Of a stretch of 52,077 nt of DNA, positions 33,546 to 36,541 are shown piece after piece (the stretch's first letter is position 1; each line of letters opens with the position of its first letter). Origin of the DNA: Spirochaetales bacterium (GTDB lineage: Bacteria; Spirochaetota; Spirochaetia; UBA9216); NCBI GenBank assembly GCA_003245835.1, contig QKCC01000213.1, forward strand, positions 1 through 52,077, in the 5' to 3' direction. The notes below the pieces were generated by a model. The model saw nothing but the letters and a program-made list of their open reading frames with translations, made no database searches and had not been told where the DNA came from. The position numbers were made by a program, and so were the translations under genes.

Positions 33546-33574
33546 TTGACATTCGGTATAAGTTGTAATAAATT
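33546..33574 (+). promoter_or_regulatory. Sigma70-like promoter for the ncRNA candidate
   Basis: TTGACA (33546-33551), 17-nt spacer, TAAATT (33569-33574). Confidence 0.5.
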
Positions 33575-33579
33575 TATAC

Positions 33580-33812
33580 ATAGAAGAGGTAAAACAAGCG
33601 GCAACATAGGTCCTGGACCTCTGGAATGTCTGCTTCGAAACTTGCTTGGAGGAGGAGAGTATGACTCCACCTGAAGGATGTCGCCGGTGCTGAACCGGCG
33701 GTTAGGATTCAAATTTTAGGGGCTTATCCCTTATTATTAAGTGAGGATTCAGTTGCCGTATTGTGACGTCACTGAATTTTCTAAAGCCGGTAATCAGTCC
33801 GGCTTTTTTTTT
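33580..33812 (+). ncRNA. Candidate structured noncoding RNA, family not identified
   Basis: Promoter-like sequence upstream, no convincing ORF, several hairpins (AGGT/ACCT; CGCCGG-N7-CCGGCG at 33682-33700; AGGG/CCCT; TTCAGT/ACTGAA), intrinsic terminator at the 3' end. Confidence 0.6.
33784..33812 (+). terminator. Intrinsic terminator of the ncRNA candidate
   Basis: aagccgg-taatcagt-ccggctt followed by a T tract. Confidence 0.88.
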
Positions 33813-34959: not shown

Positions 34960-35940
34960 TCAGGAGGCTGCCCTGGTGCCTTTTCGCTCAATGAGTGTGT
35001 AAAGGTACAGCTGGGCGGTTATTTCCCGGTGTTCCTGCCGCGCGGTCCGCAATCGTATGTCGTAATCAGCGGTCAGTGAAATAATATCCCGGATATTCTG
35101 TTCGCTGTAGTGTTTCAGCGCTTCGGAGTAGACGGCCTGAGCCTTCTTTCCCCTGATGTTGTTTTTATAACATGCGGACTGGAAGGATTCTCCGCTGCTG
35201 AGTTCCGCCGCTATTCCCTGAAGGTTTCTTAACTGCCACAAAAGACCTCCAAGCAGCTGAACGGTATTTGTATCGTTTCCGAGCATTATCTTCTGAAGTA
35301 TTTCGAGCGAACCCGGCAGGTCTGCATCTGCTATTTTATTGAACAGTGAGAAGACATTTTCTTCCTTTCCATGGTAGAAAAAGTTTTCAATGTCGGGTTT
35401 TGAGATAAGCGCGCCTTCACCGAAAAAGAGTGCGAGCTTTTCACATTCCTTTTTCATATCGGTCGTATTGTTTTCAATCAGGGTAAGCAGCAGCTCTATG
35501 GCCTCCGGTTCGATCTCTATCTTGCGGTTTCTGAAGAATCCCGACAGCCATCCCTTCTTCTGGCCTTCAAACATCTCCCAGAAAATCTTCTGGTTCTGCT
35601 TGGGTATTATCTTTCCCAGCCCGTTTTTCAGCGAGGTTTCATCCGAAAGAAAAACGATTACTGCATCTTTGGCCGGTGATGAAAAATAGGCTTTGAACTC
35701 ATCAATGTCGGTTTTTTTGAGCAGGTCAGCCTGACCGACGATAATAAGCTTCCATGCCGAAAAGAGTGATCCGTTTTTTACCAGCGAAAGAATATCCGAG
35801 ACTGTACTTTCGAACGGATAAAATCTGTGCTGCTCGGGTTCTTCGCCGAAACTTTCAGAAAGCCTGTTTTTAAGCTGTTTGAGGAAGATATTGCGTTCGC
35901 CGGTTTCGGGGCCGGAAAGCAGCCAGGCCGCCTCAGTCAT
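34960..35940 (-). CDS. holA: DNA polymerase III subunit delta
   Basis: 326 aa HolA-like: FLKQLKNRL, LFSAWKLIIVGQADLLKKTDIDEFKAYFSSPAKDAVIVFLSDE, MLGNDTNTVQLLGGLLWQLRNL. Confidence 0.8.
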   Translation of the reverse strand: MTEAAWLLSGPETGERNIFLKQLKNRLSESFGEEPEQHRFYPFESTVSDILSLVKNGSLFSAWKLIIVGQADLLKKTDIDEFKAYFSSPAKDAVIVFLSDETSLKNGLGKIIPKQNQKIFWEMFEGQKKGWLSGFFRNRKIEIEPEAIELLLTLIENNTTDMKKECEKLALFFGEGALISKPDIENFFYHGKEENVFSLFNKIADADLPGSLEILQKIMLGNDTNTVQLLGGLLWQLRNLQGIAAELSSGESFQSACYKNNIRGKKAQAVYSEALKHYSEQNIRDIISLTADYDIRLRTARQEHREITAQLYLYTLIERKGTRAAS

Positions 35941-36541
35941 AATCCCTGACTATACATTTAAGTTTTCCGAGAACCTTTACGTTCTGAGTGTATATCGGCG
36001 GGTAAACCGGGTTTTCCGCTTTCAGCTTGATCCGGTTTTTTTCCCGGTAGAATCGCTTCAAAGTGTATGCCTCATCATTTATCATCGCTACAACAATGTC
36101 TCCGTTCTCGGCGCTGTTTTTCTGGGTGAAAATCGCGACATCCCCGTCAAGAATTCCGACGTCCTGCATACTGTCGCCCGCAACGTGGAGCGCGAAAAAT
36201 TTTCCGCTTCCGAGGCGTGTCGACGGCATATTCAGCATTCCGTCGTAATTTTCTTCCGCAAAAAGCGGTTTGCCTGCCGCTACCTTGCCCAGAATCGGTA
36301 TCTGTATCGTTTCGGGTTCGTCGGTCTTCTTTTTATCAAGAATTTCAATAGTCCGTGAGCGGTTGCCGTCGCATTTTATCCTGCCCTTCTTTTCAAGCGC
36401 CTTTATGTGATCGTAGGCGCCTTTGACCGAAATGTTGAATGACGCGGCCATTTCACGGATTGTAGGCGGATAATTATGCTTGTCGATAAACGCTCTGATA
36501 TATTCCAGAGTCTCTTCCTGGCGTTTAGTCAGTTCCTTCAT
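35933..36541 (-). CDS. lexA: LexA repressor
   Basis: LTKRQEETLEYIRAFIDKHNYPPTIREMAASFNISVKGAYDHIKALEKKG; cleavage-site context VAAGKPLFAEEN; GDSMQDVGILDGDVAIF. Confidence 0.95.
   Translation of the reverse strand: MKELTKRQEETLEYIRAFIDKHNYPPTIREMAASFNISVKGAYDHIKALEKKGRIKCDGNRSRTIEILDKKKTDEPETIQIPILGKVAAGKPLFAEENYDGMLNMPSTRLGSGKFFALHVAGDSMQDVGILDGDVAIFTQKNSAENGDIVVAMINDEAYTLKRFYREKNRIKLKAENPVYPPIYTQNVKVLGKLKCIVRDYD

Follow-up and report, generated by a model that had tools for sequence, protein, structure and literature searches.

Introduction

Small RNAs that also carry a short ORF are known as dual-function RNAs; SgrS/SgrT, RNAIII/hld and Spot 42/SpfP are examples. Short ORFs that stall the ribosome are familiar as leaders controlling the gene behind them, and the regulatory leader or ribosome arrest peptides include TnaC, SecM, MgtL and SpeFL. 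Two consecutive prolines cause a milder pause than three. Frameshift-stimulating stem-loops, such as those of dnaX and HIV, put a hairpin close to where mRNA enters a ribosome held at a defined codon (PMC7282821).

The RNA described here is encoded in a stretch of 52,077 nt (contig QKCC01000213.1 of a Spirochaetales bacterium, assembly GCA_003245835.1), referred to as the window. It belongs to a previously undescribed family, which, judged by sequence comparison, is very probably real and translated. By its sequence it resembles the dual-function RNAs in being an independent, stand-alone transcript of ~150-280 nt with its own promoter, a short ORF, hairpins and its own terminator; translation of the ORF is supported by comparison. 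Unlike in those RNAs, the peptide is unconserved save for an in-frame Pro-Pro at a fixed distance from a hairpin, and the micro-ORF looks like a ribosome-positioning device. With TnaC, SecM, MgtL and SpeFL the RNA shares a tiny ORF and a stall motif beside RNA hairpins, but it is not followed by a conserved regulated gene, is closed by a terminator of its own and carries the stall motif within the first five residues. Like 6S RNA (RF00013) and the raiA motif, it is housekeeping-like, present in single copy and equipped with its own promoter.

Sequence searches

A DNA search covered 60 relatives. Covariance model R1 was applied to 198 genomes of the class, and 395 genomes were scanned with a frame-blind pattern (GAGG, CCNCC, 11 bases, GCCGG, loop, CCGGY). 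The resulting member set comprised 60 RNAs, one per genome, from 29 genera and 16 families of Spirochaetia, and included some frame-blind pattern matches picked by eye. Genomes, loci and families are designated by G, L and f numbers.

Locus and features

The RNA locus is flanked by uvrC (PF08459, GIY-YIG) and an EEP-family gene (PF03372), and its features are collected in Table 1. Transcription is predicted from the promoter position to start near 33581. The fold of the window RNA beats 200 of 200 shuffled sequences (z = -2.8). A sequence-only reading of the window had pointed to a promoter, an intrinsic terminator and a CGCCGG-N7-CCGGCG hairpin; all three were recovered, the hairpin exactly where it had been placed, and the complementary segments AGGGG...CCCT and TTCAGT...ACTGAA were found as well. 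Among the stems proposed in that reading, the CCGG hairpin, H4 (TTCAGT/ACTGAA) and the terminator proved to be conserved, whereas CAAGC/GCTTG and AGGT/ACCT are limited to this genome or, at most, genus.

In related genomes (L005, L007-L010), different transcripts end in almost the same terminator sequence as the window RNA, including its 8-nt loop (GCCGGUAAUCAGUCCGGC). Beyond the EEP gene, holA-like and lexA genes lie on the minus strand (34960-36541).

Table 1. Predicted features of the RNA locus, numbered from the first base of the window
Feature	Position	Strand	Remarks
Sigma-70 type promoter, TTGACA-N17-TAAATT	33546..33574	+	10/12 consensus matches
RNA, ~232 nt, predicted ends	33581..33812	+	promoter, terminator, fold
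Shine-Dalgarno sequence AGGAGG	33650..33655	+	5 nt upstream of start codon
Micro-ORF MTPPEGCRRC*, 10 codons + TGA	33661..33693	+	in-frame counterpart in 60/60 members; 33650-33693 reads AGGAGG-5-ATG ACT CCA CCT GAA GGA TGT CGC CGG TGC TGA
Pro-Pro codons CCA CCT	33667..33672	+	invariant CC[A/G]CCN; proposed ribosome pause site
Hairpin H2 (CGCCGGT/ACCGGCG)	33682..33700	+	core GCCGG 10 nt past second Pro codon
Hairpin H3 (AGGG/CCCT)	33718..33731	+	position kept, sequence variable
Purine motif AGUGAG	33740..33745	+	immediately 5' of H4; recurs in many members
Hairpin H4 (GGATTCAG/CTGAATTTTC)	33745..33781	+	7/7 pairs covary
Intrinsic terminator AAAGCCGG-TAATCAGT-CCGGCTTT-T(n)	33783..33812	+	8-nt loop

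Distribution

The DNA search returned clear homologues within the genus, which keep the order uvrC-RNA-EEP, and more distant homologues as well. When eight homologues were compared, the best conserved part was AGGAGGAG-n-ATG-ACT-CCA-CCT rather than a noncoding stem. As judged from these searches, the RNA is conserved among many free-living spirochaetes. It is seemingly present in single copy, the covariance-model search giving as a rule one match per genome.

The class-wide searches gave no convincing member in families f24, f20, f9 and f12, the first two of which we take to be Treponema- and Borrelia-like. Weak matches in f12 and f24 were inspected and rejected, and the three weak matches of model R1 in other classes of the phylum were unconvincing on inspection. 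No match was obtained by blastn against phages, plasmids and E. coli. In a scan of a named genome collection, 79 of the 80 loci listed were chance matches, mostly in GC-rich DNA; among the matches listed, only L250 was genuine (JAIPFV010000115.1, Spirochaetia bacterium Tobar18m-G11, identical to G066).

The sequence-only reading had been unable to assign a family, and Rfam 15 agreed with it: no model exceeded its gathering threshold over the window RNA or over the same RNA in 20 relatives. Its suggestion of 6S RNA failed, as this genome encodes 6S RNA on a different contig (G000:C316). At relaxed thresholds, weak matches to rseX, BjrC1505 and TtnuCD1 were obtained; these include the shared terminator shape or AT-rich sequence and were discarded. 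No description of the RNA was found in the open-access literature searched.

EarP (EF-P rhamnosyltransferase, PF10093) was found in 12 of 119 genomes of the class (G012, G037, G061, G075, G081, G087, G090, G100, G110, G119, G136 and G143) and in none of the 60 RNA carriers, a weak pattern that may reflect phylogeny only.

Micro-ORF and its peptide

The RNA had been taken for noncoding, ~230 nt without a convincing ORF. This has to be revised: the Shine-Dalgarno sequence and the micro-ORF are its best-conserved part, and the micro-ORF has the form M-x(0-3)-Pro-Pro. A start codon at Shine-Dalgarno distance lies in frame with two Pro codons in 60 of 60 members, which share ancestry and hence are not independent observations. 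All 29 members found by frame-blind searches (DNA or covariance model) show the same frame, so choice by eye does not account for the pattern. For comparison, a similar pattern, also blind to frame, gave 79 listed chance matches in other phyla; a start codon was present in eight, one of them in frame. Start codons are ATG in 54 members and TTG and GTG in three each.

Between start codon and Pro-Pro there are 0, 1, 2 or 3 codons in 6, 24, 26 and 4 members, respectively, and the distance is never out of frame. The distance class switches inside families f23, f26, f28 and f41, with the frame kept at each switch. Unless the prolines are decoded, it would be difficult to account for several separate length changes that all preserve the frame.

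Both prolines are invariant. The first codon is CCA in 45 and CCG in 15 of the 60 members, never CCU or CCC, and CCC/U-C is reportedly frame-shifting; this codon choice fits pausing and avoidance of the shift-prone CCC/U-C. In E. coli, CCA can strengthen Pro-Pro pausing, and CCC/U in proline pairs is negatively selected (PMC8129111). The remaining codons drift nearly neutrally: within genera, the single-base differences in the spacer codons comprised 12 synonymous ones (7.9 expected in the absence of selection) and 28 non-synonymous ones (32.1 expected). The peptides are 7 to 33 residues long. About half of the members have their stop codon in or close to the H2 loop; in the window RNA it is inside the loop.

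These data bear on whether the peptide itself is the product, the locus being a microprotein gene whose hairpins serve only mRNA stability and termination. Support for translation throughout the member set would suit such a gene, as would an Arg at fixed distance after Pro-Pro in 56 of 60 members. The seemingly conserved [GRCS]-Arg, however, is by its sequence the stem GCCGG read in frame. In L006 the stem is GCCAA/TTGGT (CCGG to CCAA), with pairing retained and Arg replaced by Gln; in L156 it contains CTGG, pairing is again retained, and Arg is replaced by Trp. As stem changes keep the pairing while Arg is lost, it is Pro-Pro, frame and hairpin that are kept, and not the peptide. With such variable length, near-neutral spacer codons, nothing but Pro-Pro and the stem-encoded residues retained, and one member stopping two codons after Pro-Pro, a microprotein gene is unlikely.

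Hairpins and covariation

The proposal of a structured RNA was borne out. In an alignment of 51 members that was fitted to a model of helix 1 (see below), H2, H4 and the terminator, and therefore leans towards structure, standard pairs occupied 91.3% of pair cells, and 18 of 26 pairs showed changes on both sides. In the same alignment, the covariation score was 0.232, as compared to 0.102 for shuffled alignments (0 of 500 reached 0.232) and 0.021-0.064 with slid partners. Covarying pairs were 5/6 in H2, 7/7 in H4 and 5/8 in the terminator.

Helix 1, the hairpin between the Shine-Dalgarno sequence and the Pro-Pro codons, is predicted by folding in many members, but only one of its five pairs covaries. 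Two explanations involve this helix. The RNA might be a C-rich trans-acting small RNA that directs an anti-Shine-Dalgarno seed, CC(A/G)CCU, at target ribosome-binding sites, with the ORF exposing or masking the seed. The invariance of CC(A/G)CC and the predicted pairing with the RNA's own Shine-Dalgarno sequence (median probability 0.54) agree with this; a seed, however, has no need to be in frame with a start codon, and the perfect anti-Shine-Dalgarno sequence CCUCC, which also encodes Pro-Pro, is never used. Together with the scant covariation of helix 1, this renders a seed improbable. It is very improbable that the self-hairpin is a sensor, e.g. a thermometer, setting initiation at the micro-ORF: the predicted pairing does leave the start codon in the loop, but it follows automatically from GGAGG and CCNCC, each conserved for other reasons, and covariation lends it no support.

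In nearly all members, 10 nt separate the second Pro codon from the start of H2, and in the rest 9-12 nt; the in-frame stall motif is thus at a constrained position. When the second Pro codon occupies the P site, H2 begins 13 nt downstream of the first base of this codon. Published stem-loops keep tRNA out of the A site from a distance of 11-12 nt (PMC7282821), and pausing is strongest with stems of about 11-12 bp (PMC8861025). As H2 has a short core of 5-8 bp and lies one nucleotide beyond 11-12 nt, it would by itself probably be a weak roadblock; we infer that H2 is an element whose folding depends on ribosome position. The RNA likewise differs from the dnaX and HIV stem-loops, in which this distance is 11-12 nt and the stem longer, by lacking a slippery sequence and a conserved, extended second frame. 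No sign of a frameshift element was thus seen in the 60 members, in which the stops of the other two frames are scattered.

The 3' part aligned poorly when taken alone. Its hairpins and the AGUGAG motif are candidates for base-pairing to target mRNAs. Longer members (L151 and L152 of f6, L128-L131 of f26) carry, between H2 and the terminator, an inserted segment containing GGAGRCGCCUAU, in which a purine run resembling a further Shine-Dalgarno sequence is combined with a near-palindrome. A promoter, an H3-like hairpin, GUGAG, an H4-like hairpin and a CUAAA(A)GCCGG terminator occur without a micro-ORF in G165 (L092), G067 (L157) and G041 (L094); these may be ORF-less relatives, or may share only a common terminator.

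Promoters and neighbouring genes

TTGAC-N17-TAnnnT is present upstream of the micro-ORF in nearly all members; the exceptions are a few members of f26 and f28 and a single f1 member. The upstream gene is uvrC in f1, f2, f23 and f25 and serC in f31, f40, f43 and f44. On the other side the neighbouring gene is variable, and in most cases it is convergent. In family f28, a Flavo-1 RNA (RF01705, 47.1 bits, cutoff 42) was found at L147 256-336, ~400 nt upstream of the RNA. Adjacency of holA to the RNA recurs in f1, f23 and f25.

An inconstant and often convergent downstream gene, together with an own promoter, indicates that the RNA is not a leader, and the sequence-only reading was right in regarding it as independent. 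It is very unlikely to be an attenuating leader that controls the gene behind it through the terminator as a switch, the Pro-Pro micro-ORF encoding the leader peptide. In favour of a leader, such peptides with stall sites are well known, and a co-directional EEP-family gene does come next in the window and in most relatives of its genus. In most of the other families, however, a different gene follows or the neighbour is convergent (holA, pyrH-like, transporter genes), and the RNA remains in G006, a genome of the window's own family that lacks the EEP gene and in which the RNA runs into convergent holA. Nor is a co-directional regulated gene conserved downstream. Across members, changes in H2 are not matched by changes in the terminator stem, as they would be with an alternative pairing, and no antiterminator is evident. 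A conserved alternative pairing that a paused ribosome could switch was looked for, and none was found.

Discussion

The RNA looks like a small RNA under the control of a paused ribosome or physically attached to one. For the explanation preferred here, a stand-alone RNA in which a ribosome-pausing cassette is coupled to a 3' RNA part, the chances are put at about even on the strength of the sequence comparisons. The 5' part, with its strong Shine-Dalgarno sequence and the micro-ORF, would bring a ribosome to Pro-Pro within the first two to five codons, where it is presumed to pause. A ribosome held there would abut folded H2, 10 nt beyond, its trailing side would cover the Shine-Dalgarno sequence, and one further translocation would start to open H2. 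The 3' part would comprise two or more further hairpins, the AGUGAG motif and the terminator. Occupancy or release of the ribosome might then set the folding, stability or activity of this part, making the RNA a translation-state-gated small RNA.

A more specific form of the pausing cassette is proposed tentatively, with the balance somewhat against it: being held by a ribosome would be what the RNA is conserved for, the micro-ORF would serve only to stop one ribosome at Pro-Pro before the hairpin, and the RNA would either read the capacity for Pro-Pro/EF-P translation or anchor its 3' domain to the ribosome, acting in trans and not on a gene downstream.

In this RNA a stalling device of the kind known from leaders is found on a stand-alone transcript across many spirochaete families, with nothing constant downstream. 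A candidate 'noncoding' RNA can thus conceal a micro-ORF that falls under every annotation cutoff. If ribosomes do pause on it, the RNA would be a trans-acting sensor or anchor of the translation state in bacteria with little known regulatory RNA.
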